Positions 19,004 to 35,460 of a DNA stretch of 64,000 bases are shown piece by piece. The stretch is from contig JAIQGC010000006.1 of assembly GCA_020072805.1 (NCBI GenBank), positions 1-64,000 on the forward strand, given 5' to 3'. Numbering within the stretch: position 1 is the first letter of the stretch; every line of letters starts with the position of its first letter. Source of the DNA: Terriglobia bacterium. GTDB lineage: Bacteria > Acidobacteriota > Terriglobia > Acidiferrales > UBA7541. Both the position numbers and the translations under genes were made by a program. The notes under the pieces are model-generated. The model was not told where the DNA came from and ran no database searches. It saw nothing but the letters and a program-made list of their open reading frames with translations.

Positions 19004-20521
19004 TTACTTGGCGATGATTTTGCCGGGGCGTGCGCCGGTGGGTTTTCCGGAGGACCAGACGAGTTCGCCGGAGACGAAGACTTTTTCGATGCCGGAGGGG
19101 AGTTCGAAGGGCTGGGCGAAGGTGGAGCGGTCGATGACGGTGGCGGGGTTGAAGAGGACGAGATCGGCGACGGCGTTTTCGCGGATGACGCCGCGGTCTT
19201 TCCAGCCGAGGCGCTGGGCGGGGAGGGAAGTCATTTTGCGGATGGCTTCGGGGAGAGTGAGCCAGCCTTTTTCGCGGACAAAGAGGCCGAGGACGCGGGG
19301 GAAGGTTCCGGCGCCGCGGGGGTGGCGCATGGCGATGCCGCCGTCGCTCGCAACCATCACCCAGGGCTGCTGGTAAAAGGCTTTGATGTCGCTCTCGAGC
19401 ATGGACTGGCCGATGATGCCGGCTTCGGTTTTGGAGGCGTCGCCTTCGCGATAGATGCGGATGTACATATCGACGGGGGAGATACCGGCCTGTTTGGCGA
19501 GGTCTTCGATGGTGTGATTTTCATAGGCGGTGTTGGGGGCGAAATTGGTAATGGTGATGCGGGAGGCGCCGCCAACGTCGGCGAGGGCTTTTTCGACGCT
19601 TTTGGGATTTTCGTACTGCTTATCGGGAACGAGGACGTTGAGGCCGGAGTGCCAGGCGTCGTAGGGATAGCAGTCGGCGAGGAAGTCGACGCCGCGTTTG
19701 CGGGCGTCTTCGATGATGCGGATGTATTCGGCGGATTTGCCGAGGACGGCGGTGGTGCCGAGCTTGATGTGGGAATGTTCAACAGGAATGTGGGCGCGTT
19801 CGGCGATGGAAATTTCTTCCTGAAGGGCGTCGAAGGCTTTATCGGCTTCGTCGCGGATATGAGTTTCGTAGAAGCCGCCGTGTTTGGCGGCGGCAGCCGC
19901 GAGAGCCACGACTTCGTCGGTGGAGCTGTAGCTGCCGACTTCGTATTCGAGGCCGGAAGAGAAGCCGATGGCGCCTTCGCGCATGGACTGCTCGACGAGG
20001 GCGGCCATTTTGGAGATTTCGCCCGGCGTGGCGGCGCGCTTGTAGTTCTCGCCCATGACGGCGAGGCGCACGGCTTCGTGGCCGATGAGAGTGGCGAGAT
20101 TGAGAGCGGGAGGATCCTTGCGGCGGGCCTCGAGCCAGGGGCCGACGGGCCAGACGGAGCCGCCATCGGGGCCAAGGATGACGGTGGTGATGCCCTGGGC
20201 GAGCTGCGTTTCGGCGAGGGGATCGGCGGCGATTCCTTCGGCGGAGTGATTGTGCATGTCGATGAAGCCGGGAGCGAGGACCAGGCCGCGGGCGTCGATG
20301 ACGGTTTCGCCCTTGGCGGGGAGGAAAGAGCCGACCTTGACGATTTTACCGGTCTGGACGCGGACGCTGGCGAGGTGCAGGGGAGCGCCAGTGCCGTCGG
20401 CGAGTTGGGCGCCGGTGATGACAAAGGAAGAGGATGAGTTTTCCTGGGCATGGAGGGCGAGGGAGGCGGCAGCCAGGAGCAGGAGAGTGAGAAGCGCAGC
20501 GAACCGGGAAATAAAAGACAT
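19004..20521 (-). CDS. Secreted N-acyl-D-amino-acid deacylase (D-aminoacylase-type amidohydrolase)
   Basis: This 505-aa amidohydrolase-superfamily enzyme has a signal peptide (hydrophobic residues ~7-22, cleavage near LHAQE). The metal and catalytic residues of the D-aminoacylase group are present: HNH in PGFIDMHNHSAEG, THIRDEADK, the VEHSHIKLG pair and the essential Asp in VASDGGIAMRHPRGAG. The reaction would be hydrolysis of an N-acyl-D-amino acid or a related N-acyl amine to the free amine in the periplasm. It lies about 100 nt downstream of the polyamine-type ABC transporter genes, suggesting it feeds that transporter. ATG 20521 gives the proper signal peptide. Confidence 0.88.
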   Translation of the reverse strand: MSFISRFAALLTLLLLAAASLALHAQENSSSSFVITGAQLADGTGAPLHLASVRVQTGKIVKVGSFLPAKGETVIDARGLVLAPGFIDMHNHSAEGIAADPLAETQLAQGITTVILGPDGGSVWPVGPWLEARRKDPPALNLATLIGHEAVRLAVMGENYKRAATPGEISKMAALVEQSMREGAIGFSSGLEYEVGSYSSTDEVVALAAAAAKHGGFYETHIRDEADKAFDALQEEISIAERAHIPVEHSHIKLGTTAVLGKSAEYIRIIEDARKRGVDFLADCYPYDAWHSGLNVLVPDKQYENPKSVEKALADVGGASRITITNFAPNTAYENHTIEDLAKQAGISPVDMYIRIYREGDASKTEAGIIGQSMLESDIKAFYQQPWVMVASDGGIAMRHPRGAGTFPRVLGLFVREKGWLTLPEAIRKMTSLPAQRLGWKDRGVIRENAVADLVLFNPATVIDRSTFAQPFELPSGIEKVFVSGELVWSSGKPTGARPGKIIAK

Positions 20522-20623
20522 TCGATCTCCAGTCGAGCGGGTAAAAGATGCAAGGCGCAGCATGATGCATTGTGGAAGCGAATTACGAATCCAGAAGAGA
20601 TTACCGCAAGGGAGGGGGGAGAG

Positions 20624-21433
20624 CTAATCCAATTTTGGAGCAAGGGCGCGCGTGCGCAGGCGATGCCAGATGAGGATTAAGACGACGGAGGCGGCGAAGA
20701 TGAGGGTGGAGACGGCGTTGATTTCGGGAGTGATGCCGCGGCGGAGGCGGCCCCAGATTTCGAGGGGGAGGGTATTGTCGCGGCCGATGAGGAAGAAGGA
20801 GACGGCGATTTCGTCCATGGAGAGAGTGAAGATCAGGAGAGCGGAGGCGATGAGAGGAAGGCGGAGCCCGGGAAGAGTGACGCGCCAGAAGGTTTTCCAG
20901 GGGGTGGCGCCGAGGTCGAGGGAGGCCTCTTCGAGAGAGCGGTCGAGTTTTTGCAGGCCGGCGAAGAGTTCGGTGGTGGCGACGGAGATGAGGGCGGTGC
21001 CGTGGCCGAGGAGGACGGTGAAGAGGCTGAGTTTGAGTCCGGCGAAGACGGAAAACATGAGCAGGGAGAGGCCAGTGATGAGGCCGGGAAGGATGAGGGG
21101 AAGAAGGACGAGGCGGCGGAAGAGGGATTTTCCGGGGAAATCGGCGCGGTCGAGGGCGAGGGCGGCGAGGAGGCCGAGAGAGAGGGAGATGACGATGCTG
21201 GCGGCGGCGACGAGGAGGCTGTTGAGGAGAGCGTCCCAGATGGGGGAGTCGGCGAAGAGCAGGCGGTACCAGTCGAGGGTGAGGTGATGCGGGGGAAAGC
21301 CGCCGACGCCATCGCGATTGAAGGAGTAGGCGATGAGAACGAGGATGGGGAGATAGAGGAAGGCGAAGACGGCGAGGGAGTAGGAAACGAGGAGGGGGGC
21401 GCGGCTTGTCGAGTGGCGCGGCGGGTGGCTCAT
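20624..21433 (-). CDS. potC: PotC-like ABC transporter permease (spermidine/putrescine type)
   Basis: This 269-aa inner-membrane permease has about six helices. The EAA loop, EEASLDLGATPWKTFWRVTLP, near residues 165-185 is typical of the PotC/CysW type. With PotB it forms the channel through which the substrate is moved at the expense of ATP. ATG 21433 overlaps the potB stop by 4 nt (ATGA), so translation is coupled. The longer frame from 21514 runs inside potB and is rejected. It is the last gene of the transporter set. Confidence 0.9.
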   Translation of the reverse strand: MSHPPRHSTSRAPLLVSYSLAVFAFLYLPILVLIAYSFNRDGVGGFPPHHLTLDWYRLLFADSPIWDALLNSLLVAAASIVISLSLGLLAALALDRADFPGKSLFRRLVLLPLILPGLITGLSLLMFSVFAGLKLSLFTVLLGHGTALISVATTELFAGLQKLDRSLEEASLDLGATPWKTFWRVTLPGLRLPLIASALLIFTLSMDEIAVSFFLIGRDNTLPLEIWGRLRRGITPEINAVSTLIFAASVVLILIWHRLRTRALAPKLD

Positions 21434-22287
21434 CGGGAGGCTCCCGTGTGGGACCAGCGTTTTTCTAGACGCTCGGTGAGGAAGAGGATGGAGAGGATGA
21501 GCAGGAGGATGCACATGGAGATGGCCGCGCCGAGAGGCCAGTCATAGGCGGCGCCGAAGAGGCTTTGGACGATGTTGGCGATCATGGTGCCGGAAGGGCC
21601 GCCGACGAGAAGGGGAGCGAGGAAATCGCCGAGAGTGAGGAGAAAAGCGAAGGTGGAGCCTGCGAGAAGGCCGGGAAGGGAGAGAGGAAGAACGACGCGC
21701 AGGAAAGTGGAGCGGGGACCGGCGCCGAGGTCGTGGGAGGCTTCGAGGAGCGGGCGGGGAATCTGTTCGAGGGAGGCGTAGATGGGCAGGAAGACGAAGG
21801 GAGTGTAGATGTGCGTGAGCATGAGAACGACGGAGAAGGGGCTATAGAGAAGGAAGGAGGCGGGCTCGGTGGTGAGGTGGAGATAGTGGAGAAAACCGTT
21901 GAGAACGCCGTCGGTGCCGAGAATGGTTTTCCAGGCGTAGCCGCGGACGAGATAACTGACCCAGAGCGGAACGATGACGAGTTGATAGAGAAGTTGCTTG
22001 CGCGGGCCAGCGTGGAAGGAGAGGTAGTAGGCGAGGGGATAGCCGAGGAGAACGGAGCAGAGAGTGACGGAGGCGGCGATGCGCAGGGTGCGGAAAAGAA
22101 CCTGGAGATAGACGGGATGGGAGAAGAGGGTGCGGTAGTTGGAAAGAGTCCAGTCGTGGACCAGAAAGCCCTGGCGAACGGCCCAGAAGGAGTGAGCCAG
22201 CATGAGGGCGTAGGGAAGCAGAAGGAAGACGGCGACCCAGGCGAGCGGTGGGATGGAGATAAGCGATTTGTAGAGGCGCGAGTACAT
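21430..22287 (-). CDS. potB: PotB-like ABC transporter permease (spermidine/putrescine type)
   Basis: This 285-aa permease has an N-terminal helix at residues ~12-32 ([19 protein letters not shown]), about six helices in all, and an EAA loop [20 protein letters not shown] near residues 183-202. Family features such as [20 protein letters not shown] are clear. It pairs with PotC downstream (4-nt overlap). Its start lies 7 nt after the potA stop. Polyamines are the usual substrate, but close relatives carry other amines and small organic cations. Confidence 0.92.
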
Positions 22288-22293
22288 GGCTGG

Positions 22294-23323
22294 CTATGAT
22301 TCCCTGACGCATACGGCGTCCTGCGGGAGGAAGAAGAAATTGTGTTCGGTGGTGGCGGCGAGGCTGGCTGGATCGCTGGGGGCGGTGCGCACGCGGAGGA
22401 GTTGGTCGCCGACGGAGATTTCGAGGAGTTCGCTGGGGCCGGCGTAGATGCGCTGGAGGATGGAGGCGCGGAAGAGGATGGCGCCGGAAGGAGCGGGTTC
22501 GGCGGAAAGGCGGATGGATTCCGGGCGGAGGGAGAAGAGCGCGGGGCCGTCGGGGAGCCACTTCGCCGCGCAGGAGATTGGTCTGGCCGATAAATTGAGC
22601 GGCGTAGGCGGTGGCGGGACGGGAGTAGATTTCGCGGGGAGCGGCAACCTGTTCGAGCGAGCCGTTGCGGAGGAGAGCGATGCGGTCGGAGAGGGCCATG
22701 GCTTCGTCCTGGTCGTGAGTGACGAAGAGGAAGGTGATGCCGACTTCGCGCTGCAGGGATTTGAGTTCGGACTGCATCTGTTTGCGGAGATTGGCGTCGA
22801 GAGCGGAGAGCGGCTCGTCGAGGAGGAGGAGCTGGGGGCGGTTGATGAGGGCGCGGGCAAGAGCGACGCGCTGCTGCTGGCCGCCGCTGAGCTGGGAGGG
22901 ACGAGCGGTGGAGAAGCCGGTCATTTTGACCATGCGCAGGGAGGCTTCGACGCGGGAGGCGATTTCGGCGGACGGGACGCCGGTGACGCGGAGGCCGTAG
23001 GCGACGTTATCGCGGACGTTGAGATGAGGGAAGAGGGCGTAGTGCTGGAAGACGGTGTTAACGCGGCGGCGGTGAGGCGGGAGGGTGTCGAGACGTTCGC
23101 CGCGCATCCAGATTTCGCCGGCGGTGGGTTGCTCGAAGCCGGCGATGAGGCGGAGCAGGGTGGTCTTGCCGGAACCGCTTTCGCCGAGGAGGGTGAGGAA
23201 TTCTCCGGGGACGATATCGAGGGAGAGAGATTTCAGGACTTCCGCCGAGCCGAAGCGCTTGGAGACGGCGCGGACTTCAACGAGAGGAGCGGCGGAGACG
23301 GGAGATGAGGCGGCGGAGGTCAC
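22294..23323 (-). pseudogene. potA: PotA-like ABC ATPase, interrupted by a frame change
   Basis: The N-terminal ~255 codons (GTG 23323 down to about 22562) are an intact PotA ATPase: Walker [11 protein letters not shown]-loop [10 protein letters not shown], signature LSGGQQQR, Walker B LLLLDEP and H-loop THDQDEA. Right after [11 protein letters not shown] the frame becomes meaningless, while the C-terminal TOBE-type domain ([12 protein letters not shown] to the stop at 22294) continues in another frame. The total span of 1,030 nt is not a multiple of three, and roughly 10-20 linker residues seem missing. The GTG start overlaps the potD stop (GTGA). It is either a small real deletion or an assembly error; the ATPase half could still be made. 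Confidence 0.85.
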
Positions 23324-24381
23324 TGAGCGGCTTTGACCTCGTTCCAGATTTCGTTGTACTTGGCGCGTCGGGGGACGTCCTGCCAGAAATAGATGCGCTG
23401 CATATAGGCGTCGGGGTTGTCGAGATGCAGGGACTTTTTTTCCTCGTGGGTCATGAATTTGGCGGCGGAGGGATTGGCGGGGACGTAGCCGGTGACGGCG
23501 GTGACTTGCTTCTGGGTTTGCGCCTGGATCATGAATTCGAGGAAGGCGTGGGCGAGATCCTTGTGTTCGCTGGCGGAGGTGATCATGAGGTGGTCGATCC
23601 AGCCGGTGGTGTTTTCGCGGGGAATGGTTTCGCCGATGGGGAAGAAGGACTTGTGGAGCTGGGCGGTCATGAGGGGCCAGCCCATGGCGATGGTGACTTC
23701 GTGGTTCTGGAAGAGGTTGGTGAGTTCGCCGCCGGTGGTCCACATTTTGCGGATGTTGGGCTTGAGGGCGAGGAGCTTGGTTTTGACGGCGGCGAGTTGC
23801 TCGTCGGAGAGGTTGTAGAGCTGGTCGGGGTCGGGCTTGTCGTAGCCGAGGACCTGGGCGGCCATGTAGACGGTGGAGAGATCGTCCCAGACGGAGACTT
23901 TGCCTTTGAGCTGGGGATCCCAAAGGACGGACCAGGAGTCGGGGGGCTGGGAGAAGGCGGAAGTGTCGTAGAGGAGCGGATTGGGGCCCCACATGAAGGG
24001 AACGCCGAAGATGCGGCCGTTTGATTTGACGAGTGGGAGGGCGCGGAGCTTCGGGGAGAGTTGGTTGTAGGAGGGGAGTTGGGCCATGTCGAGAGGAGCG
24101 GCGAGGCCGGTGGAGGCGAGCATACCGGCGACGTCGCTCGAGGGGGAGATGACGTCGTAGTTGGAGGCGCTGCCGCCGCGGAGCTTGGCGACGAGCTCGT
24201 CGCTGGAGCCCATATAGGAGGCGACGACTTTGCAGTGATGGGACTCTTCAAAGGCGCGGACGTAGGAGGGGTCGGCATAGCCTTCCCATACGAGCAGGCT
24301 GAGGGTGACTTCTTTTTGGCGGCAGGCGGCGAGGGCGAAAACCAGAGAGAGAATTGCGGCTATAAGCGCGAAGCGTTTCAT
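23320..24381 (-). CDS. potD: PotD-like periplasmic substrate-binding lipoprotein
   Basis: This 353-aa binding protein is of the spermidine/putrescine type. It has a lipoprotein signal: [15 protein letters not shown] then the lipobox ALAAC at residues ~16-20. The mature part opens with [19 protein letters not shown], the usual PotD-like first strand, and has [14 protein letters not shown] and [17 protein letters not shown] 24381 has GGAG 6 nt upstream; the frame starting at 24408 would overlap the preceding gene. It captures the amine in the periplasm and hands it to PotBC. The potD-potA-potB-potC order is unlike the E. coli potABCD order. Confidence 0.92.
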
Positions 24382-24404
24382 TTGGTCTCCTAAGCGAGTG
24401 GCGG

Positions 24405-26123
24405 TCACTTGGCATCCTCCTGATAGACGACCGAGCCGTTGACCATGGTGAGGAGAACCTTGGTGGCGGCGATTTTGTGGGGGTCAATCTCGAAAAGATT
24501 TTGCGAGACGATGATGAGATCGGCAAGCTTGCCGGGTTCGAGCGAGCCTTCGGAATTTTCGCGGCGGGCAGCGAAAGCGGCGCCGAGGGTGTAGCCCTGG
24601 ATGGCTTCGGGGAGAGAGAGGCGCTGGGCGGGACCGAAGCCGCCGGGGGGAGTGCTTTCCAGGGTTTGGCGAGTGACGGCGGTTTGCAGGCCGATCCAGG
24701 GGTCAAGAGTGACGACGGGCCAGTCGCTGCCGAAAGTGTAGCGGCCGCCGGCGAGGGCGATGCTGTGCCAGGACCAGGCGCGGGAGGTGCGGTCGGGGCC
24801 GGCGTTGCGTGCCCAGACCTCGGTGAGGTTTACACCGGGGTAGGAATGCAGAGGCTGCATGCTGGCGATGACGCCGAGCTGGCCGAAGCGGGGAATGTCG
24901 GAGGCGGCGATGGTTTCGATGTGCTCGATGCGGGGGCGGCGGCCGGAGGTGTGATTCGCGGCGGCGGCGTTTTCGTAGGCGTCGAGGGCGGTGCGCACGG
25001 CGAGTTCGCCGATGGAGTGGGTGAAAAGCTGCAGGCCGCGTTTATCGAGTTCGGCGACGGCGGCGTTGTAGTTGGCGGGGGTCCAGAAGAGGGCGCCTTT
25101 GGTGGAAGGGTCGTCGGAGTAAGGGCCGAGCATGGCGGCGGTATGGGCTTCAACGACGCCGTCGAGCATGAATTTGACGGCGTCGGTGTCAATCCAATCG
25201 TCGTGGAAAATTTTGCGGGCGGATTCGATGGCCTCGAGGTCCTGGGGACGGAGTTCGGGAGGGTTCAGGAAATAGGCGATGGTAAAGCGCAGGGTGAGAT
25301 CGCCGGAGCGGCGGAGCTGGTCATAGAGAGCGAGTTCCTCGAAATCGCCGCCGCAGCTGTGGACGCGAGTGAGGCCGTTGCGATTGGCCCAGCGGATGCC
25401 GTCGCGCAGGGCGGCGAGTTTATCCTCGCGGGTGGGTTTGGGAATGACGGCGGCGACCAAAGCTTGAGCTTCTTCCTTGAGGGCGCCGGTGGCTTCGCCC
25501 GTTTGCGGGTCGCGGACGATGATGCCGTTGGGGGGATTGGGGGTATCGCGGGAGATGGAAGCGAGAGCCAGGGCCTTGGAATTGGCCCAGTAGGTGTGGC
25601 CGTCGTAGCCTTCGAGGAAGACGGGGCGATCGGGGAAAAGTTCATCGAGATATTTCTTGTGGGGGAGGGCGGCGGCGCCAAACATGGCGTAGTCCCAGCC
25701 GCGGCCGAGGATCCAGGAGTTGCCGGGATGGGCGGCGGCGTAGGCGCGGAGGCGCTGCTGGATGTCGGCGGGATCTTTCGCGCCTTCAAGATTGACGCGG
25801 CCAAGGCTGAAGGAGCCGTCGAGGAAATGGATGTGGGAATCGGTGAAGCCGGGGAGGACGAGATGGTTGTGGGCGTCGAGAGTTTTGGTTTGGGGGCCGC
25901 GGCGCTTTTCGATTTCGGCGGGGGAGCCCACGGCAACGATTTTGCCGGCGCGGATGGCGAGGGCTTCGGCCCAGGGATGCTGGGGGGCGAGGGTATAGAT
26001 TTTGGCGTGAAGAAGGATGGTGTCGGCGGGAGCCGGGGAAGCGGACTGGGCGAGAGAAGCAGCGGCGGCGACAGACAGAAGCACCGCGGCGAAAAGCATG
26101 CGCAAGAAACGAGCGGAATTCAT
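24405..26123 (-). CDS. Secreted YtcJ-like metal-dependent amidohydrolase
   Basis: This 572-aa amidohydrolase-3 (TIM-barrel) protein has a signal peptide (FLRMLFAAVLLSVAAAASLAQ). Metal-site residues are visible: HIH in FTDSHIHFLDG, VHSCGG, IEHIET, FTHSIGELAVR and the Asp in TFGSDWPV. The C-terminal beta domain is LEPGKLADLIIVSQNLFEID. The natural substrate of this family is uncertain (amides and cyclic amides are reported for relatives). It lies 23 nt upstream of potD, so its product may be what PotD binds. ATG 26123 has GAGG 7 nt upstream; a TTG two codons earlier is the alternative. Confidence 0.85.
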   Translation of the reverse strand: MNSARFLRMLFAAVLLSVAAAASLAQSASPAPADTILLHAKIYTLAPQHPWAEALAIRAGKIVAVGSPAEIEKRRGPQTKTLDAHNHLVLPGFTDSHIHFLDGSFSLGRVNLEGAKDPADIQQRLRAYAAAHPGNSWILGRGWDYAMFGAAALPHKKYLDELFPDRPVFLEGYDGHTYWANSKALALASISRDTPNPPNGIIVRDPQTGEATGALKEEAQALVAAVIPKPTREDKLAALRDGIRWANRNGLTRVHSCGGDFEELALYDQLRRSGDLTLRFTIAYFLNPPELRPQDLEAIESARKIFHDDWIDTDAVKFMLDGVVEAHTAAMLGPYSDDPSTKGALFWTPANYNAAVAELDKRGLQLFTHSIGELAVRTALDAYENAAAANHTSGRRPRIEHIETIAASDIPRFGQLGVIASMQPLHSYPGVNLTEVWARNAGPDRTSRAWSWHSIALAGGRYTFGSDWPVVTLDPWIGLQTAVTRQTLESTPPGGFGPAQRLSLPEAIQGYTLGAAFAARRENSEGSLEPGKLADLIIVSQNLFEIDPHKIAATKVLLTMVNGSVVYQEDAK

Positions 26124-26249
26124 GAGCAACCTCGTTTGGAAAGAAAGCAGTCCTGCACCGGGATGATAACGGTTCGCCGGGGGTTTTTCACCGGGAGAAA
26201 TGGCGAAGAGGAGCGAGGCGAAAAAATATTGTGCGGTTGCGCGGCCATA

Positions 26250-27086
26250 TCAGAAGGAGGGCGGGGTGTTGATCCACAGGAGGCAGGTTTCGCCGCGGCC
26301 GGAATTTCTCCAGCGGTGGGGGATGGAGCTTTGGAAGCAGAAGCTGTCGCCGGCGCGCAGGAGATAGTGTTCGGTTTCATTGAGCCAGAGTTCGAGCTGG
26401 CCCTTGAGGATGTGCAGGAACTCCTCGCCGACGTGGGTGTAGGATTCGCCGCTGCCGCCGCCGGGTTTGATGCGGAAGAGATGGGGTTCGAGGGAGGTAT
26501 TGCCCCAGGCGAGGAGCTCCATGCGCACACCCGGAGTCGTTTCGAGGACTTTTCTTTGCGCGGGAGAGACCAGGAGCTGATTCTGCGCAGAAGGCTCGAA
26601 GAAGGAGAGGATGTTGGTCTTATAGAAGCGGGCGATGCGTTTGAGCGTGGCGATCGAAGCGCGCATCTGGCCGCGTTCGAGGGCGCTGAGGAAGCCGGTG
26701 GAAACGGAGGTGGAGCGGGCCACCTGGGCGAGGGAGAGGCCGCGGGCGAGGCGCAGGCGGCGGAAACGGTGGCCGGGGTGAGCGGCGCTTTCTGAGGCAG
26801 CGGTAGGAGCGCCGCGTTTGAGGATGTGAACGACAGCGGCGGGATTGAGGCCGCGGGAACGGCGGAGAAAGATGGCGCGCTGGAGAAGGCGGACATCGGC
26901 GGCGGTGTAGAGGCGGTATTTGCCGCGAGAGCGGCGGGGGGAGAGGAGGCCGAGGGCTTCCCAGGCGCGAAGTGCGGAGGAGGAGATGCCGATGCGTTTG
27001 GCGACGTCGCTGATGCGCAGGTGCTGGGAGGAGTGCGCGGGGCGTCGTGGAGCGAGATTCTTTTTGCTTGACAGGGGCATAGCCAT
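26250..27086 (-). CDS. Three-domain regulator: MerR helix-turn-helix, XRE helix-turn-helix, cupin
   Basis: In this 278-aa cytoplasmic regulator residues ~23-92 are a MerR-type DNA-binding domain (LRISDVAKRIGISSSALRAWE then the KYRLYTAADV wing). Residues ~105-160 are a second, XRE/HTH_3 domain (FRRLRLARGLSLAQVARST, GFLSALERG). Residues ~200-275 are a cupin with YTHVGEEFLHILKGQLELW and IPHRWRNSG, the likely ligand-sensing barrel. XRE-cupin is the build of PuuR, the putrescine regulator; the added MerR domain is unusual. It lies at the divergent point between the amidohydrolase-pot operon and the receptor operon and probably controls both and itself. Confidence 0.88.
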   Translation of the reverse strand: MAMPLSSKKNLAPRRPAHSSQHLRISDVAKRIGISSSALRAWEALGLLSPRRSRGKYRLYTAADVRLLQRAIFLRRSRGLNPAAVVHILKRGAPTAASESAAHPGHRFRRLRLARGLSLAQVARSTSVSTGFLSALERGQMRASIATLKRIARFYKTNILSFFEPSAQNQLLVSPAQRKVLETTPGVRMELLAWGNTSLEPHLFRIKPGGGSGESYTHVGEEFLHILKGQLELWLNETEHYLLRAGDSFCFQSSIPHRWRNSGRGETCLLWINTPPSF

Positions 27087-27091
27087 TCACT

Positions 27092-27116
27092 AACCTTGCG
27101 GGATTATAGTAAGGTT
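27092..27116. promoter_or_regulatory. MerR-type dyad operator in the divergent intergenic region
   Basis: Inverted repeats AACCTT (27092-27097) and AAGGTT (27111-27116), 13 nt apart, lie between the regulator and the TonB receptor gene. ACCTT...AAGGT is the core of known CueR/MerR operators, and a MerR domain is encoded next door. The dyad covers the regulator's own -10, so autorepression is likely; a plus-strand TATAGT (27105-27110) within it could serve the receptor gene. Confidence 0.55.
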
Positions 27117-27131
27117 CGGGGCGGACAGCAA
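27103..27131 (-). promoter_or_regulatory. Promoter of the MerR-XRE-cupin regulator
   Basis: On the minus strand: -35 TTGCTG (27131-27126), exactly 17 nt, -10 TATAAT (27108-27103). The predicted start near 27096 is about 10 nt before ATG 27086, so the leader is very short and contains at most a weak AAGG ribosome site. It overlaps the dyad at 27092-27116. Confidence 0.6.
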
Positions 27132-27162
27132 GGTGGAAATCTTCAAATCGCGGGGGTGCGAA

Positions 27163-30100
27163 ATGAAAGGGAACGACAAGCGAGCGGGTTTTGTGGGGAT
27201 GCTGGCGGCGTTGCTGCTGGCCGTGCTGCTGGCGGCGCCGATGGGAATGGCGCAGAGCACGGGCGGGCGCATCCGCGGAACGGTGATGGATTCGAGCGGG
27301 GGCGCGGTGGCGTCGGTGAAGGTGACGCTGACGAATGAGGCCACGGGCGCGAAGCGCGAAGTGCAGAGCAGCGGGGACGGCGAATACATGTTCCTGGAAG
27401 TGCCGGTGGGCACGTACCAGGTGGAAGCGCAGCAGGCGGGATTCAAGAAGTACGTGCGCAAAGGGATCGAGCTGCGGCTGAACGAAGTACTGGCGCTGGA
27501 CATCACGCTGCAGGTGGGCGGTTCAACGGAGACCGTGGAAGTAACGGGAGCGCCGCCGCTGGTGGACACGACCTCGACGCAATTGGGCGCGGTGGTCAAT
27601 GAGCGCTCGGTGACGGAGTTGCCCCTGGCGCAGCGGGATACGTATCAGTTGCTGTCCCTGCAGCCGGGCGTGCAGTCCACGCTGGGCGTGGACAACGTAT
27701 TCGGCAGCGAGAAGGCCGGCGTGGTGAGCGTGAACGGCGGGCGCGGGCGGGACAACAATTTTACAGTGAACGGCGGCGACGGCAACGACCAGTTCGCCAA
27801 CCTGCCGGCGGTGCAGCCTTCGCCGGATACGATCGCGGAATTCCGCATGCTGACGAACACGTTTGACGCGGAATACGGGCGCAACTCGGGCGCGGTGATC
27901 AACGTGGTGACCAAGTCCGGGACCAACGACTGGCACGGCAACCTCTACGACTACTTCCGCAACAAGAATCTGAATGCCAAGGGCTTTTTCGATGACTCAA
28001 AGCTGGATTATTTGCAGAATCAGTTTGGCGCGACGTTCGGCGGGCCGGTGAAGAAGGACAAGACGTTTTTCTTTGCCTCGTTTGAGGGCGACCGGAAGCG
28101 CAAGGGCACTTCTTCGGACACGGTGGCGGTGCCCACGGCGCTGGAGCGCAGCGGAGATTTTTCGGCTGGAGGGGGCTTCGGCGGAATTTTGTCCAATGCC
28201 AGTATTTTGAACAATCGCCCCGGTTGCCTTACGGCCCTGGGTCTTGGTGCGCCGATTGTGGATGGCACCGCGTATTCCTCGATTTTCACCACGGGAGTGA
28301 TACCCACGGCCTGTATGGACCAGACGGCGCGCGATTTGATGACGCTGGTGCCGAGCGCCAACCGTCCGGACGGGACGTGGCAGGGAGTGCCGCTGGGGCA
28401 TGAGCGCAGCAATCAGTTCACGGTCAAGCTGGATCAGGAACTGACCAGCAAGCAGCATCTGACCGGGTACTACTACTTCACGCAGCACTATCTGGCCAAG
28501 CCGTTTGCGCGGTTCCAGGCTGGCGGAGCAACGCTGCCCGGCTACGGCGACCTGACCGACGAGCGCACCCAGCAGATTAACGTCAGCCACACCTGGCAAC
28601 TGGGGAGCAACGGAGTCAATGAGGCGCGGTTTACTTTCTTGCGCGAGGGGCAAGGAACCTATCTGCACCCGCAGCACACCAGTTTGTTGAAGGACTCCTG
28701 TCCGCAAGTGGTCGCCAATAACTGCTTCATCGACCTGAGCAATCCGACCAATGCGGGCAATTCGAGCTTGGGTATCAATCCGGCGCTGGGCTCCGGGAGA
28801 GAAGGCCTGCCTTTCGTTTCGATCTCCGGCGGATTCTCGATGGGCAATAACTTTGAGGGAGAACTGCCGCAGAAGGGGAATAGCTACCAATTTACGGACA
28901 GCTACGGAAAAGTGATTGGCAAGCACAGCCTGAAGTTCGGTGCGGATTTCCGCATCCAGCAGTTCGACCAGAGACTCTATTTCGACGTCAACGGCGCGTT
29001 CTATCTGTATGGCGGCGGTCCGAACGAACCCTGCTATGGCGGCGCGCTGGATGCAAACGGAATCTGTCAGGGGAACATCAACCTGTTCCCGAACTTCCTG
29101 CTGGGCCTGAACGACAACTACATTCAAGGTTCGGCGCAGGATGAATTGGTGCGCAGCAAGGCGGCCTACCTCTTCGCGCAGGACAGTTGGACCATCACTC
29201 CGAACTTGACGCTGAACTACGGAATTCGATGGGAGTTGAACACGCCGCTGACGGATAAGGGACAGAAGGTGCAAACGTTCCATCCGGGGCAGAACTCGAC
29301 CGTCTATCCGTGCCAACTGAACGCCTCGAGCATTCTCAACTACCAGACCAATTACGGGATTGCGAATCCAACTTGCGACAATACGGGAGTCACCCCGACC
29401 GGCGTAGTAGTGCCGGGGGATTCCGGTGTGCCCGCGGGGCTGACCAATCCGTATTACAACGCCTTTGCGCCGCGCATCGGCCTGGCCTGGAGTCCGGGCG
29501 GTGATGGCGCGCTGGGGAAGCTGTTTGGACGGAAGGGACAGACCAGCGTGCGGGTGGGGTTTGGGATGTTCTACAACCCGATCGAGCAGTTGGTGCTCGA
29601 GCAGTTCAGCGCCGAGCCGCCATTCGGGGGCAGCACGAGCATCTATAACACCACATTCAGCCTGCCGTTCCAGTATCAGGATGGCACCAGCGCTCCCAAC
29701 CCGTTCAACGGAATCCTGAATCCGCCGCGCAACAGCCCCGTGGACTGGTCGATCTTCCGTCCCATGCTGTTCTACGGACAATGGCCGGCGAACATGAAGT
29801 CGCAATACGCGGAGCAGTACAACCTGACGATTCAGCGGGAGATTATGAAGGACCTGGTCTTCCAAATCGGCTACGTGGGCCGTCAGGGTCACCGCCTGCT
29901 GGCGACGCGCGACCGCAACCCCGGCAACGCTCAGACCTGCAATGACTTGAACAACATCTCAACACTTACCGGGGACGCGGGCCTGGCCTGCGGGCCGTGG
30001 TATGAGGATAGCTCGTTTTTTATTCCGGCGGGCACGATTCCCGCTGGGGTCACCCTGCATCTGCCCTATGGTTCGGTGGCAAGCGTGACCGGACCGAACC

Positions 30101-30939
30101 CGACGGACATCACCCTGGTGGGCCTGCGGCCGTTTTCTTCGCCCATCTGCGAACCGACAACCGGGGTGGGTTGCCCGGTGGACGGTATCCCCGTGATCAC
30201 CAGCATCTTTTCGCAGGATACAATCGCCAACTCGTCCTATAACTCGCTGCAGGCCAGCCTGGAAAAGCGCTTCTCGCACGGCGTGCAGTTCCAGGCGTCG
30301 TACACGCTGGGCAAATCGCTGGACTACGCGTCCACGTTTGAAAGCCTGGTGGACCCCTACAACATGAAGCGCAACCGTTCGCTTTCGATCTTTGACGCGA
30401 AGCACCGCTTCGTCTTCAGCTTCGATTGGGAACTGCCCGTGCCCAAGCATGAAGGATTCGCGGGGAAGGTCGTGAATGGGTGGTCGCTGTCCGGGATTAC
30501 CCAGTTCCAGACCGGATTCCCCGTCCGCATCACCTCGCAGGATGACATGGAGCTGCAGGGCAGCTTCGACTTCGAGATGCCCGGGCAGCCGAACTTTGCT
30601 CCGGGAGCCGTCTTCCATGCGACGGACCCGCGCATTAACGGCTACGGGTTCGATCCCAACACGTTCACCAACGCCACGGTGGCGCTGGGCACAATCGGCA
30701 ACGCGCCGCGGACCATCTGCTGCGGTCCCAGTTCGTTGAACACGGACATGGGGTTCCAGAAACAGATTCCCGTGAATGAAAGGGTCCATTTCGAATTCCA
30801 CGGGCAATTCATGAACGTGTTCAACCACACGCAGTTCATGCAGCCGGATGGCAATATCACCGACGGCGGGGATTTCGGGCGGGTGAAGCGCGCGCGCGAT
30901 CCGCGGCTGATGCAGTTCGCCTTGAAGCTGTACTTCTAG
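27163..30939 (+). CDS. Oar-like TonB-dependent outer-membrane receptor
   Basis: This 1,258-aa protein starts with a signal peptide (AALLLAVLLAAPMGMAQ). A carboxypeptidase-regulatory-like Ig-type domain at residues ~35-115 (GTVMDSSGGAVASVKVTL...GTYQVEAQQAGF) is followed by a plug region (TETVEVTGAPPLVDTTS, TLGAVVNERSVTELPL) and a large beta-barrel ending LKLYF. This architecture is common in Acidobacteriota and Myxococcota (Oar). It should take up or bind a bulky substrate at the outer membrane, powered by TonB (not in the window). ATG 27163 is preferred to the GTG ten codons upstream. It is the first gene of the plus-strand catabolic operon. Confidence 0.93.
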   Translation: MKGNDKRAGFVGMLAALLLAVLLAAPMGMAQSTGGRIRGTVMDSSGGAVASVKVTLTNEATGAKREVQSSGDGEYMFLEVPVGTYQVEAQQAGFKKYVRKGIELRLNEVLALDITLQVGGSTETVEVTGAPPLVDTTSTQLGAVVNERSVTELPLAQRDTYQLLSLQPGVQSTLGVDNVFGSEKAGVVSVNGGRGRDNNFTVNGGDGNDQFANLPAVQPSPDTIAEFRMLTNTFDAEYGRNSGAVINVVTKSGTNDWHGNLYDYFRNKNLNAKGFFDDSKLDYLQNQFGATFGGPVKKDKTFFFASFEGDRKRKGTSSDTVAVPTALERSGDFSAGGGFGGILSNASILNNRPGCLTALGLGAPIVDGTAYSSIFTTGVIPTACMDQTARDLMTLVPSANRPDGTWQGVPLGHERSNQFTVKLDQELTSKQHLTGYYYFTQHYLAKPFARFQAGGATLPGYGDLTDERTQQINVSHTWQLGSNGVNEARFTFLREGQGTYLHPQHTSLLKDSCPQVVANNCFIDLSNPTNAGNSSLGINPALGSGREGLPFVSISGGFSMGNNFEGELPQKGNSYQFTDSYGKVIGKHSLKFGADFRIQQFDQRLYFDVNGAFYLYGGGPNEPCYGGALDANGICQGNINLFPNFLLGLNDNYIQGSAQDELVRSKAAYLFAQDSWTITPNLTLNYGIRWELNTPLTDKGQKVQTFHPGQNSTVYPCQLNASSILNYQTNYGIANPTCDNTGVTPTGVVVPGDSGVPAGLTNPYYNAFAPRIGLAWSPGGDGALGKLFGRKGQTSVRVGFGMFYNPIEQLVLEQFSAEPPFGGSTSIYNTTFSLPFQYQDGTSAPNPFNGILNPPRNSPVDWSIFRPMLFYGQWPANMKSQYAEQYNLTIQREIMKDLVFQIGYVGRQGHRLLATRDRNPGNAQTCNDLNNISTLTGDAGLACGPWYEDSSFFIPAGTIPAGVTLHLPYGSVASVTGPNPTDITLVGLRPFSSPICEPTTGVGCPVDGIPVITSIFSQDTIANSSYNSLQASLEKRFSHGVQFQASYTLGKSLDYASTFESLVDPYNMKRNRSLSIFDAKHRFVFSFDWELPVPKHEGFAGKVVNGWSLSGITQFQTGFPVRITSQDDMELQGSFDFEMPGQPNFAPGAVFHATDPRINGYGFDPNTFTNATVALGTIGNAPRTICCGPSSLNTDMGFQKQIPVNERVHFEFHGQFMNVFNHTQFMQPDGNITDGGDFGRVKRARDPRLMQFALKLYF

Positions 30940-31107: not shown

Positions 31108-32487
31108 ATGCACGACGCACTGAAGAATGAAATCAGCACCTACGAAAAGCGCACGCCGAAATCGGCGGCATCGCACACGCGGGCGCTGAAGAGGATTCCG
31201 CTGGGAGTGGCCAGCAACTACCGGGCCTATGATCCATATCCGCTGTTCGTGAAGGAAGCGCAGGGAAGCAAGATCCGGGACATTGACGGCAACGAGTACG
31301 TGGACCACAACCTATGCTTCGGGACGCTGATGGCGGGGCATTCGCATCCGGAAGTGGTAAAGGCGGTGGAGGCGCAGCTGCACCATGGCACGGCCTACGG
31401 CATGCCGCACGACATGGAATGGGAACTGGCCGAGGAGATCTGCGGGCGGTATCCGGTGGAGATGGTGCGCTTCGGCTCGAGCGGGACGGAAGCGACGATG
31501 CACGCATGCCGAATTGCGCGGGCGGCGGCCGGGCGGGACAAGATTATCAAGTTCGAAGGCTCCTACCACGGACTGCACGACACGGCGCTGATCAGCGTGA
31601 AGCCCAAGCCAGAAGAGTACGGCGACGCGGATGCGCCGAATTCGGTTCCGGGCGGGCTGGGAGTGCCCCAGGCCAGCGTGGCCAACGTGGTGATAGCCAG
31701 CTTCAATAACCTGAAGAGCGTGGAGCGGCGGTTCAAGGGAAATCCGGGGCAGATTGCCGCGGTTATTCTGGAGCCGATCCTGATGAACGTTGGGCTGTGC
31801 ATGCCGCAGCCGGGGTTCCTGGAAGGACTGCGCAAGCTGTGTACGGAAAACGGAGCGCTGCTGATCTTCGACGAAGTGAAAACGGGAGCGAAACTGGGCT
31901 GGGGCGGAGCGAGCGAAGCCTACAACGTGAAGCCGGACATTACCTGCCTGGCGAAATCCATCGGCGGAGGATTCCCGCTGGCGGCGTTTGGAACAAGCCG
32001 GAAGGTGATGGACCTGATCTCCGACCACAAGGTATTTCACGGCGGGACGTACAACACGAATCCGATTTCGATGGCGGCGGGGCTGGCGACGTTCCGCTCG
32101 GTGCTCACGCGCGAGAATTATGCGCACGTGGCCAAGCTGAGCAAGAAGCTGGCGGAAGGATACCGCAAGACGATCGCGAAGGTGGGCTTGAAGGCGTACG
32201 TGGCCAGCGCGGGTGCGAACGGGGCACTGATGCTGTACCCCAAGGAAATCCAGAACTATCGCGACTGGACGCTGGTGGACATTGACCTGTGGAGACAGTA
32301 CTGGTTCGGGATGGTCAACCGGGGGGTGCTGGCGCAGCCCTACTGGTGGGACGAGCAGTGGACGATTTCCGTGCAGCACACGGAAGCGGACATTGACAAG
32401 CACCTCGCGGCGTTCGAGGACGTGGCTCCGGGGCTGGCGAAGGCGCAGCAGGAGCGCGGGCCGGTGACGGTCGCGGCGGGACACTAA
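31108..32487 (+). CDS. Class-III PLP aminotransferase, glutamate-1-semialdehyde-aminomutase-like
   Basis: This 459-aa fold-type-I PLP enzyme has the Schiff-base lysine K283 in CLAKSIGGGFPLAAFGT, a phosphate-binding SSGTEATMHACR segment near residue 130, and FDEVKTGAKLGWGG with the cofactor-binding Asp. It resembles HemL-like aminotransferases, but the context (no haem genes; next to an amine permease and a dehydrogenase) favours a catabolic omega-aminotransferase that turns a terminal amine into an aldehyde. ATG 31108 follows AGGGAGC. The permease gene is 29 nt downstream. Confidence 0.88.
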   Translation: MHDALKNEISTYEKRTPKSAASHTRALKRIPLGVASNYRAYDPYPLFVKEAQGSKIRDIDGNEYVDHNLCFGTLMAGHSHPEVVKAVEAQLHHGTAYGMPHDMEWELAEEICGRYPVEMVRFGSSGTEATMHACRIARAAAGRDKIIKFEGSYHGLHDTALISVKPKPEEYGDADAPNSVPGGLGVPQASVANVVIASFNNLKSVERRFKGNPGQIAAVILEPILMNVGLCMPQPGFLEGLRKLCTENGALLIFDEVKTGAKLGWGGASEAYNVKPDITCLAKSIGGGFPLAAFGTSRKVMDLISDHKVFHGGTYNTNPISMAAGLATFRSVLTRENYAHVAKLSKKLAEGYRKTIAKVGLKAYVASAGANGALMLYPKEIQNYRDWTLVDIDLWRQYWFGMVNRGVLAQPYWWDEQWTISVQHTEADIDKHLAAFEDVAPGLAKAQQERGPVTVAAGH

Positions 32488-32516: not shown

Positions 32517-33941
32517 TTGGCAAACGAGGTCCTGACGGAACAGGCGGGGGAGCAGGAGCAGCCCCATCTCAAGCGAGTATTAGGCCGTTGGGACCTTGTG
32601 CTGCTATTTGTCGTCGCGGTTTTCAACCTCAACGTGGTGCCCAGCATCGCGGCCAACGGAGGAGTGACCGTCTGGCTGTGGGTGGTGGCGCTGATCCTCT
32701 TTTTCGTGCCGCAGGGAATCGCGGTGATCGAACTCTCCCATCGCTATCCGGGCGAAGGGGGAGTTTACCTGTGGGCGAAAAAGGAATTTGGAGATTTTCA
32801 CGGGTTTCTTTCCGGGTGGTGCTACTGGACGAATAACATGATGTACGTGCCCACGGTGATGCTGTATTTCGTGGGCGTTTCGGTGTTCGTGCTGGGGCCC
32901 AGCCATGCGCAACTGGCGGACAACCGCATGTTTGCGCTGGGAGCCTCGGTGGTGCTGCTGGGGTTGCTGGTGGTGCTGAACGTGGTTGGTCTGGGCGTGG
33001 GCAAGTGGGTGAATAATGCCGGGGCGGTGGGGACGGGAATTGCCGCGGCGATACTGATTGGCCTGGGGCTGCTAGTGTGGATGCGCTTTGGGACGACGGT
33101 AACGGCGAACGATTTTCGAATTCCGGCGAATCCGCGGTTTCTCATTAATTCGTTTGGGGTAATCTGCTTCGGGCTGGTGGGGCTGGAACTGGCTTCGGTG
33201 ATGGGCGACGAGATCCAGGATCCGCGGAAGACATTGCCGGGAGCGGTGGCCTGGGGCGGGCTGCTTTCCGGAGCGCTCTATATAGGAGCGACGCTGACGC
33301 TGCTGACGGGCGTGAAGCAGAGCGACATCAGCGTGCTGCAGGGAATCGTGCAGGCCGTGGAGCATATGGCGGCGCGGGTGGGCGGCGGATGGATTGTGGC
33401 GCCGTTCGCGCTGATGCTGAGTATTTCGATTGCGGGAATCGGCTCGGCGTGGCTGGGCGGTTCGGCGCGCATTCCATTCGTGGCGGGCCTCGATTCCTAC
33501 ATGCCGTCGTGGCTGGGCAAGGTGCATCCGAAATATGGCACGCCCTATGCGGCGTTGATTGTGCACGCGGTGATATCCCTGATCCTGGTGATTGTGAATT
33601 TCACGGTGACGGATTCCGGGGTGCAGGAGACATTTCAGAAGCTGCTTTCGCTGGCGGTGGTGCTGCAACTGATTCCGTTTATCTATCTGTTCGCGGCGCT
33701 GCTGAAGATCGCGCGGGATAAGACGAGGGAGGCGGGATATTACCAGCCGTGGGTGCTTTATGCCGCGGGCGGCAGCGGGCTGCTGACGACGATATTGGGG
33801 ATCCTCGTGGTGTTTTCGCCGGCGGCGCAGATCAAGTCGATCCTGTCCTATGAAATTTGGATGGTGGGAGGAACCGCTGGATTTATCGGTTTGGCGGCGT
33901 TTTTCTTTTTTGTGTACGGCGGGCGGAAAGCGGCGCGGTAA
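32517..33941 (+). CDS. APC-family amino-acid/polyamine permease
   Basis: This 474-aa protein with about 12 TM helices begins with an APC-type first helix (LGRWDLVLLFVVAVFNLNVVPSIAANG). The segment LSHRYPGEGGVYLWAKKEFG is the usual loop of amino-acid/polyamine antiporters and symporters. The start is a TTG at 32517 with GGAGAG about 6 nt upstream; the next in-frame ATG is too far inside. It should import or exchange an amine or amino acid, complementing the ABC transporter encoded on the other strand. It sits 29 nt after the aminotransferase and 37 nt before the dehydrogenase, in one operon. Confidence 0.9.
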   Translation: MANEVLTEQAGEQEQPHLKRVLGRWDLVLLFVVAVFNLNVVPSIAANGGVTVWLWVVALILFFVPQGIAVIELSHRYPGEGGVYLWAKKEFGDFHGFLSGWCYWTNNMMYVPTVMLYFVGVSVFVLGPSHAQLADNRMFALGASVVLLGLLVVLNVVGLGVGKWVNNAGAVGTGIAAAILIGLGLLVWMRFGTTVTANDFRIPANPRFLINSFGVICFGLVGLELASVMGDEIQDPRKTLPGAVAWGGLLSGALYIGATLTLLTGVKQSDISVLQGIVQAVEHMAARVGGGWIVAPFALMLSISIAGIGSAWLGGSARIPFVAGLDSYMPSWLGKVHPKYGTPYAALIVHAVISLILVIVNFTVTDSGVQETFQKLLSLAVVLQLIPFIYLFAALLKIARDKTREAGYYQPWVLYAAGGSGLLTTILGILVVFSPAAQIKSILSYEIWMVGGTAGFIGLAAFFFFVYGGRKAAR

Positions 33942-33978
33942 GCGCGCTTGAGGATTCAAGAGAAGCGTGGAGGGGACA

Positions 33979-35460
33979 ATGTCCAGCACGGCAAAACAGA
34001 GCGTTCGCAGCTACCAAAACTACATCAACGGGAAGTTCGTGAGCAGCGCGACGGGCGAGACCTTCGCGGTCTATGACCCTTCCACGGAAGAAGTGATCGC
34101 GCAGGTGGCGGCGGGCGGCGCGGCGGATGTGGACAGCGCGGTGAAGGCGGCGCGCGCGGCTTTTGATACCGGCGACTGGGGAAAGACCTCGGCGCAGGAC
34201 CGCGGACGGATTCTCTTTAAGCTGGCGGAAAAAATTCGTGCCAACGCAGCCATGCTGTCCGAGCTGGAATGCCGCAACACGGGCAAGCCGCTGGTGGAGG
34301 CGGAATACGACATCGCCGACGCGGCGACCTGTTTTGAATACTACGGCGGGCTGGCCAACAAGGTGATGGGGCAGACGATGCCGGTGCCGGCCAACGGCCT
34401 AAGCTTCACGCTGAAGGAGCCGATGGGCGTGGCCGGGCAGATAATTCCGTGGAACTATCCGCTGGTGATGGCGGCGTGGAAGCTGGGGCCGGCGATCGCG
34501 GCGGGCTGCACAATCGTGCTGAAGCCCGCGGAGCAGACGCCCTGCACCATGATGGAAGCGGCACGGTGGTTCGAGGAAGCCGGGCTGCCGCCGGGAGTGG
34601 TGAACATCGTGAACGGGATGGGCGAGACGGCGGGAGCGGCGCTGGTGGCCCACCCCGGCGTGGACAAGATTGCCTTCACGGGCAGCGCGGCGGTGGGCAA
34701 GATCATCGTGAAGAGCGCGGCGGACACGCTGAAGCGGGTGACGCTGGAGCTGGGCGGAAAATCGCCGAACATTTTCTTCGCGGAAGCGGACTGGGAAGCG
34801 GCGGTGGACGGCGCGCTGTTCGGCGTGTTCATCAACCAGGGGGAAGTGTGCTCGGCGGGGAGCCGCATCCTGGTGGAGAAGAAGATCTATTCAAAATTTG
34901 TCGAGGCCATGACGGAGAAGGCCAAAAAGATCAAGCTGGGGCCGCCGATGGACCGGGAAACGAAGATGGGGCCGCTGGTCAGCCGGGAACAGTACGACCG
35001 GGTGACGTCCTATCTCGAACTGGGGAAGAAGGAAGCGCGGGTGGCCAGCGGAGGCGGGCGGCCCAAGGAGTTTGCCAAGGGGTATTACGTGCAGCCGACG
35101 ATTTTCTGCGACGTGAACAATAACGCGCGGATCGCCCGCGAGGAAATTTTCGGGCCGGTGGCCACGGTGATTCCGTTCGAAAACGAAGCGGAGGCCATCC
35201 GCATCGCCAACGATACGCCGTACGGGCTGGCGGCGGCGGTGTGGACGCGGGACATTTTCAAGGCGTTTCGCGTGGTTAAGGCGGTGCGCGCGGGGATCGT
35301 GTGGATCAACCACATGCAGCCGACGTACGTGGAAGCGCCCTGGGGCGGCTACAAGCAGTCGGGATTCGGGCGCGAGCTGGGGCCGTGGGGGCTGGAAGAA
35401 TATCTCGAAACCAAGCAGGTGTTCGTGAACCTGGACGAGACACCGATCGGGTGGTACTGA
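33979..35460 (+). CDS. Aldehyde dehydrogenase, betaine/amino-aldehyde type
   Basis: This 493-aa NAD(P)-dependent aldehyde dehydrogenase has the catalytic Cys291 in INQGEVCSAGSR, the general base Glu257 in LELGGKSPN, and the cofactor Asn in IPWNYPLVMAAWK. The sequence style (MQPTYVEAPWGGYKQSGFGR) is closest to betaine-aldehyde and gamma-aminobutyraldehyde dehydrogenases (BetB, PuuC, PatD types). It would oxidise the aldehyde formed by deamination of an amine to an amino acid such as GABA. ATG 33979 has GGAGGGG upstream; the GTG at 33967 overlaps that site. The stop overlaps the next start by one base. Confidence 0.92.
   Translation: MSSTAKQSVRSYQNYINGKFVSSATGETFAVYDPSTEEVIAQVAAGGAADVDSAVKAARAAFDTGDWGKTSAQDRGRILFKLAEKIRANAAMLSELECRNTGKPLVEAEYDIADAATCFEYYGGLANKVMGQTMPVPANGLSFTLKEPMGVAGQIIPWNYPLVMAAWKLGPAIAAGCTIVLKPAEQTPCTMMEAARWFEEAGLPPGVVNIVNGMGETAGAALVAHPGVDKIAFTGSAAVGKIIVKSAADTLKRVTLELGGKSPNIFFAEADWEAAVDGALFGVFINQGEVCSAGSRILVEKKIYSKFVEAMTEKAKKIKLGPPMDRETKMGPLVSREQYDRVTSYLELGKKEARVASGGGRPKEFAKGYYVQPTIFCDVNNNARIAREEIFGPVATVIPFENEAEAIRIANDTPYGLAAAVWTRDIFKAFRVVKAVRAGIVWINHMQPTYVEAPWGGYKQSGFGRELGPWGLEEYLETKQVFVNLDETPIGWY

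Follow-up and report, generated by a model that had tools for sequence, protein, structure and literature searches.

A protein that carries two unrelated DNA-binding heads on one sensor is unusual, and the gene for such a protein lies at the point where two operons diverge in the window analyzed here, a 64,000-nucleotide stretch of a contig from a Terriglobia bacterium. Given this architecture and position, we wondered which DNA site the protein recognizes, whether it activates or represses its neighbors, and which signal it responds to. An ORF check placed its gene at exactly 26250-27086, and the surrounding genes are the following:

26250..27086, minus strand: MerR-XRE-cupin regulator, 278 aa, with the start at Met1 (27086) or Met3 (27080)
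27163..30939, plus strand: Oar/TonB-type outer-membrane protein (CarboxypepD_reg and OMP_b-brl_4), first gene of the divergent operon; ORF listed from 27133
31108..32487, plus strand: class-III aminotransferase, glutamate-1-semialdehyde-aminomutase-like
32517..33941, plus strand: amino acid/polyamine permease, GadC-like
33967..35460, plus strand: aldehyde dehydrogenase (ALDH), betaine-/aminobutyraldehyde-/succinate-semialdehyde-dehydrogenase-like, below the equivalog cut-offs shown
35457..36821, plus strand: GABA transaminase gabT (TIGR00700 equivalog, 579.9 bits vs a cut-off of 506.65)
24405..26129, minus strand: amidohydrolase (Amidohydro_3), the next gene after the regulator and a conserved neighbor
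20624..24408, minus strand: Pot-type (spermidine/putrescine family) ABC transporter potD-potA-potB-potC
19004..20563, minus strand: D-aminoacylase-like amidohydrolase, conserved at the L101 locus

Within the transporter genes, potA (22294-23340, minus strand) is split between two frames and its L101 homologue reads through, so that the split copy is either a pseudogene or an assembly error.

The initial annotation, made from the sequence letters, had divided the 278-aa chain into a MerR-type HTH, an XRE HTH, and a cupin. With the Pfam gathering cut-offs as the threshold for all three calls, MerR_1 was found at residues 24-90 (E 1.5e-15, 57.5 bits vs a cut-off of 21.6), HTH_3 at residues 109-159 (E 2.1e-14, 53.7 bits vs 23), and Cupin_2 at residues 203-272 (E 2.7e-17, 62.7 bits vs 27.2). 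Both HTH regions score as DNA-binding domains, and the order and limits of the three domains, as well as the divergent position of the gene, were borne out. The start of a relative (L101/L063) aligns with Met3, and the true start may therefore be 27080 rather than 27086. An AlphaFold2 model built on a shallow alignment of 8 sequences (mean pLDDT 73.3, pTM 0.40) contains three folded units at about 23-90, 104-162, and 179-278, joined by low-confidence linkers at 92-101 and 165-178; at this pTM the mutual placement of the domains is not predicted and their arrangement is not interpretable. In the MerR family, a long dimerisation helix follows the winged helix. In our model, a helix at 82-90 is followed by the linker at 92-101 and then by the XRE domain.

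The two parts of the chain resemble different families. The MerR part matches CarH (5c8d) and CueR chains in sequence over residues 11-85, and shares with the MerR family (HspR, CarH, CueR, and others) a complete winged-helix MerR_1 domain; it differs in that the winged helix has no MerR-type effector domain after it, and the XRE head starts about 13 residues past the MerR match. The best Foldseek matches of the model, the HppE-type protein 2bno and the Vibrio XRE-cupin protein 1y9q, both fall on the XRE-cupin part, but HppE is an epoxidase, the 1y9q match has no MerR head, and the global superposition with the regulator is poor (rmsd ~13 Å). When only the cupin part was compared by VIA-align, cupin 4e2g gave a Z of 15.6 over 104 residues with an rmsd of 2.8. 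The C-terminal 180 residues (99-278) align end to end with the model of PuuR, the putrescine-utilisation repressor of E. coli (NCBIfam NF007408). The score of 72.1 bits is far under the equivalog cut-off of 211, and the protein is thus PuuR-like but not PuuR. PuuR likewise has an XRE head followed by a cupin and ends in ...HTPTTF, compared with ...NTPPTF in the regulator family, and the genes puuE and puuC of the E. coli puu cluster code for a GABA aminotransferase and an aldehyde dehydrogenase, respectively. Unlike the regulator, PuuR is 185 aa long and has no MerR head.

The regulator is not confined to one genome. In a phylum-wide sample of 297 genomes, 29 gave matches at E<=1e-15; full-length relatives covering all three domains occur in 11, and the remaining matches cover the XRE-cupin part only. 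At E<=1e-40, matches were found in 46 of 299 genomes of the class, one of them (G553) cut by a contig end. Outside the phylum, 122 plasmid records match at E<=1e-20, 121 of them with at least 80% coverage, and nearly all are rhizobial (82 from Sinorhizobium, 15 from Shinella, 9 from Ensifer, 8 from Agrobacterium, and a few others), with identities of 32-41% among the matches listed. A Pfam scan of 8 further proteins found MerR_1, an XRE-type HTH, and Cupin_2 together in 7. Several candidates were rejected: L008 (Corynebacterium) as a partial relative, as its Pfam match is to MerR only, and L022-L040, L005-L007, and L061 as full relatives, as their matches span the XRE-cupin part only. In the databases the plasmid relatives are annotated as 'MerR family transcriptional regulator', a label that conceals both the sensor and the second head.

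Comparison of the Acidobacteriaceae and rhizobial members gave mean identities of 44% for the MerR domain, 35% for the XRE domain, and 49% for the cupin, while the linker between the heads is only 10% identical; for the recognition helices, the values are 57% (MerR) and 42% (XRE). Judged from these alignments, the MerR-type head is as conserved as the XRE head, and both are kept. All 74 aligned members have the same residue at R40, R52, and R58 in the MerR domain and at Y216, H218, E221, H257, and W271 in the cupin, whereas position 222 is occupied by E in 69 members and by D in 5. We take H218, E222, and H257 to occupy the positions where cupins bind metal, which makes metal binding by this cupin likely; metal cupins are among its nearest structures in Foldseek and VIA-align. 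A quick tree built from the XRE-cupin part (44 fused and 24 unfused rows) sets the two kinds of protein apart almost completely; 3 changes are required, located at weak forks beside the long branches PuuR and L022, so a single origin of the MerR fusion appears possible.

The neighborhood of the regulator is also conserved. Among its Acidobacteriaceae relatives (at least 50% identity, 43 loci), gabT lies near the regulator in all 19 loci with long enough DNA, a count that left out L133, whose contig ended early, and loci that were unextended or short. The order TonB-aminotransferase-permease-ALDH-gabT is kept in 18 of the 19, and in the other locus (L099) gabT adjoins the regulator in a different arrangement. 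One of 13 more distant Acidobacteriota loci is too short; gabT occurs within about 10 kb in 8 of the 12 assessable ones, counting L048, where only a fragment of gabT is present at a contig end, and is not nearby in the other 4. On plasmids of the main rhizobial branch, gabT is directly divergent from the regulator in 15 of 17 loci, usually together with gabD, the exceptions being Microvirga L056 and Roseateles L111. These two belong to eight family loci with long flanks in which gabT is absent, together with the plasmid loci L059 and L116 and the paralogues L092, L093, L094, and L096. On this evidence from gene order, gabT is the conserved partner of the regulator across two phyla.

In nearly all close relatives, the DNA upstream of the regulator includes the block AACCTTRC TATAATCCN GYAARSTTAG, which contains a palindrome that overlaps the -10 boxes of two putative promoters:

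27092..27116, palindromic: AACCTTGC-N9-GTAAGGTT, 25 bp, the proposed operator, with the core TTRC-N9-GYAA at 27096-27112
27068..27096, plus strand: putative promoter of the TonB...gabT operon, TTGACA (27068-27073), N17, TAACCT (27091-27096), the latter on one palindrome arm
27103..27131, minus strand: putative promoter of the regulator, TTGCTG (27131-27126), N17, TATAAT (27108-27103), the latter in the palindrome center

We searched de novo for degenerate palindromic dyads with gaps of 3-16 in 43 Acidobacteriaceae and 15 rhizobial regions. Sixteen loci had been left out before counting, as shorter copies of loci kept at greater length or, for L088, because of a contig-end cut, and the rhizobial set omits L110 (match in two pieces) and L111 (no gabT). 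TTRC-N9-GYAA ranked first in the Acidobacteriaceae (38/43). The top rhizobial dyads were TRCA-N15-TGYA, ranked first (13/15), and TRCA-N7-TGYA, which is the YTRC-N9-GYAR site; in the latter form the site ranked fourth (14/15; shuffles mean 0.8, max 4), and it is present in 39 of the 43 Acidobacteriaceae regions (shuffles mean 3.2, max 8). For the half-site YTRC/GYAR, a gap of 9 is far above the shuffles in both groups and gaps other than 9 and 6 are near background; the gap of 6 has a smaller excess (14/43 and 5/15 regions, respectively). ACCT-N15-AGGT was an extra dyad in 16 of the 43 Acidobacteriaceae regions. Because YTRC-N9-GYAR was picked after viewing both groups, the clean test is the Acidobacteriaceae pattern TTRC-N9-GYAA held out against the rhizobial regions, where it occurs in 9 of 15, compared with a mean of 0.39 and a maximum of 3 in 300 shuffles. 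The same pattern occurs in 4 of 591 control stretches of rhizobial loci and in 16 of 987 in Acidobacteriaceae loci. The commonest rhizobial form of the site is TTGCATTTTTTCTGCAA. Many of the compared upstream sequences are related, so these counts overstate independence, and what speaks most for the proposed site is that the two phyla agree.

On both strands of its own genome (3.98 Mb), 27092-27116 is the only match to the long form at <=1 mismatch, and a backward control pattern gave 1 match per strand. The strict form occurs in 3 of 13 distant Acidobacteriota loci and in none of the four outliers L059, L116, L111, and L056; it was not found at L047, where a divergent gabT is present, nor was a YTRC-N9-GYAR or TTRY-N9-RYAA site found in the E. 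coli puuA-puuD and puuA-ymjE intervals. Some other distant Acidobacteriota have TTGTAAT...ATTRYAA-like palindromes near the start, which could be chance in AT-rich DNA. As far as these comparisons go, the site is most closely associated with the branches that are linked to gabT, and part of the family lacks it. At five Shinella and Neorhizobium loci (L053, L113, L114, L118, and L062), the gabT-regulator interval contains the site twice, at a distance of 29-33 bases, and the second copy is followed by an additional TGCAA half-site.

The placement of both divergent promoters is based on conservation. In all 38 loci with the exact core, TTGACA-N17/18-TAnnnT faces the TonB operon with the palindrome arm as its last hexamer, and in 30 of the 38, TTGnnn-N16/17-TATAAT faces the regulator with TATAAT as the palindrome center; the exact core with TATAAT is missing in 5 of the 43 Acidobacteriaceae loci (L064, L107, L105, L102, and L099). 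A generic sigma-70 scan called neither promoter, because one hexamer is weak in each, TAACCT and TTGCTG both matching the consensus at 3 of 6 positions. A protein bound at the palindrome would cover both -10 boxes, a geometry that suits occlusion. The opening codons of the regulator gene (27068-27086) contain the putative -35 box of the divergent operon, and the regulators of relatives from outside the genus have their start further downstream.

Taking the site, the promoters, and the neighborhood together, we consider it likely that the MerR-XRE-cupin protein is a ligand-responsive local repressor of GABA/amine catabolism, and it is probably a little-studied on/off switch for the use of GABA or related amines as food. 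It would work as a PuuR-type XRE-cupin repressor with an N-terminal MerR-type winged helix added. A dimer would sit on the 25-bp palindrome at 27092-27116. It would thereby mask the -10 region of the regulator promoter, from which the amidohydrolase and Pot-transporter genes are probably transcribed as well, and, at the TonB-aminotransferase-permease-ALDH-gabT operon, the -10 box together with the start region. Both transcription units would be kept repressed until a metabolite of an amine pathway occupies the cupin; GABA is the most likely one, or a compound close to it such as putrescine or succinate semialdehyde, whereupon the ligand-bound protein would release the DNA. Repression is proposed by analogy with P. 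aeruginosa, in which, according to PMC7901475, the seven XRE-cupin regulators with determined regulons inhibit mostly adjacent metabolic genes from sites in core promoters.

The initial annotation had expected control of both operons and sensing of a putrescine-type amine. The first is likely in view of the conserved palindrome in the intergenic fragment 27087-27162. The second was retained in part: the XRE-cupin part is PuuR-like, but putrescine as the only signal was dropped as the first choice, because gabT, and no putrescine enzyme, is the neighbor common to both phyla, which makes GABA, or an amine feeding into GABA, the better guess. Putrescine is possible as a signal, given the Pot transporter and the aminotransferase and ALDH genes. 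Going by the family names of the neighboring genes, the order aminotransferase-ALDH-gabT would fit a route from putrescine through 4-aminobutanal and GABA to succinate semialdehyde, and the permease and the Pot transporter would serve the entry of amines.

There is a modest chance that the cupin ligand lies outside GABA/polyamine metabolism, for example a dipeptide or an acylated amino acid handled by the amidohydrolases. Two amidohydrolases and the TonB-type protein are conserved neighbors, and four Acidobacteriaceae paralogues of ~40% identity (L092-L094 and L096) adjoin a TonB-type gene, three of them also an amidohydrolase; at these loci, neither gabT nearby nor the strict palindrome was found in the long-flank and upstream checks. 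Against such a ligand stands gabT as the neighbor common to both phyla. As this alternative concerns the ligand alone, it is compatible with the repressor model.

How the two heads would divide the operator under the repressor model can be framed from conservation. Of the two, the MerR head may be somewhat more likely to read the TTRC/GYAA half-site, a weak preference drawn from its recognition helix, which is more conserved between the phyla than that of the XRE head. A bolder arrangement, which we regard as speculative and rather unlikely, is that the two MerR and two XRE heads of a dimer grip one composite operator while a metal-dependent cupin senses GABA, one kind of head contacting the inner half-sites TTRC/GYAA, which are 9 bases apart, and the other kind contacting AACC/GGTT in the outer arms. 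The N15 dyads, ACCT-N15-AGGT in the Acidobacteriaceae and TRCA-N15-TGYA in the rhizobia, are hints of such a composite site. If true, this would define an ancient class of GABA-sensing regulators common to Acidobacteriota and Alphaproteobacteria, in which the MerR domain is an extra clamp for repression and not a promoter-twisting activator.

MerR regulators often activate, and those that do have their operator inside a promoter spacer of 19-20 bp. A corresponding model for this locus, in which the promoter-bound protein represses its own gene and, on sensing a ligand through the cupin, twists the DNA to open the weak TTGACA-N17/18-TAnnnT promoter, draws on the complete MerR domain with its invariant R40, R52, and R58 and on a catabolic promoter whose -35 box is perfect and whose -10 box is poor, as at activator-dependent promoters. 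However, a spacer of 19-20 bp was not found on either side: it is 17-18 bp on the catabolic side (38/38 loci) and 16-17 bp on the regulator side (30/38). The former is normal for sigma-70, unlike the targets of MerR activators, and no untwisting would be needed. The palindrome, moreover, lies not within the catabolic spacer but over and downstream of the -10 box, and the known XRE-cupin proteins repress (PMC7901475). With normal spacers and a site over, rather than between, the hexamers of the catabolic promoter, activation of the MerR type is unlikely, and the bending or promoter distortion suggested in the initial annotation so far lacks support. Least probable, and very unlikely in our judgment, is that the palindrome is the site of another regulator or a mere promoter element and that the protein acts elsewhere: in the Acidobacteriaceae the palindrome center is a TATAAT box that selection would keep anyway, but in the rhizobia, where ATTTTTTCT takes the place of TATAAT in the center, both the arms and the spacing of 9 bases are retained, and besides the site the two phyla have the regulator and gabT in common.

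The preferred model, a local repressor of GABA/amine catabolism, places the protein beside known regulators from which it differs in composition. The P. aeruginosa XRE-cupin repressors (ErfA, PsdR, PauR, and others) have two of its three domains and repress neighboring metabolic genes locally, through motifs that are palindromic where determined and lie mostly in core promoters, but have no MerR head; the word MerR is absent from PMC7901475. The novelty is thus a MerR head added to the XRE-cupin kind, not a new kind of system. Our search of the open literature found no study of the MerR-XRE-cupin architecture or of such a regulator of gabT. GabR/MocR regulators are GABA-responsive and have gabT as a target, like the presumed signal and target here. 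MocR regulators combine a GntR-type head with an aminotransferase-like domain and are unrelated to the MerR-XRE-cupin protein.

The operator and the regulon predicted here, along with the likely signal, appear to be conserved between Acidobacteria of the soil and symbionts of legumes, among them Sinorhizobium. Together with the two heads, they make it testable which head reads which bases, and also whether a MerR domain can function without its usual promoter-twisting role. In rhizobia, the protein is a candidate for the GABA-responsive control of gabT; a 2002 paper, going by its title, reportedly deals with GABA induction of gabT in R. leguminosarum. A second branch of MerR-XRE-cupin proteins, at 32-33% identity, is represented by L059 and L116 on plasmids of Agrobacterium and Shinella. 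These adjoin electron-transfer-flavoprotein, purU, and folD (formyl-tetrahydrofolate) genes rather than gabT, and these neighbors suggest a one-carbon or methyl-amine regulon for this branch.
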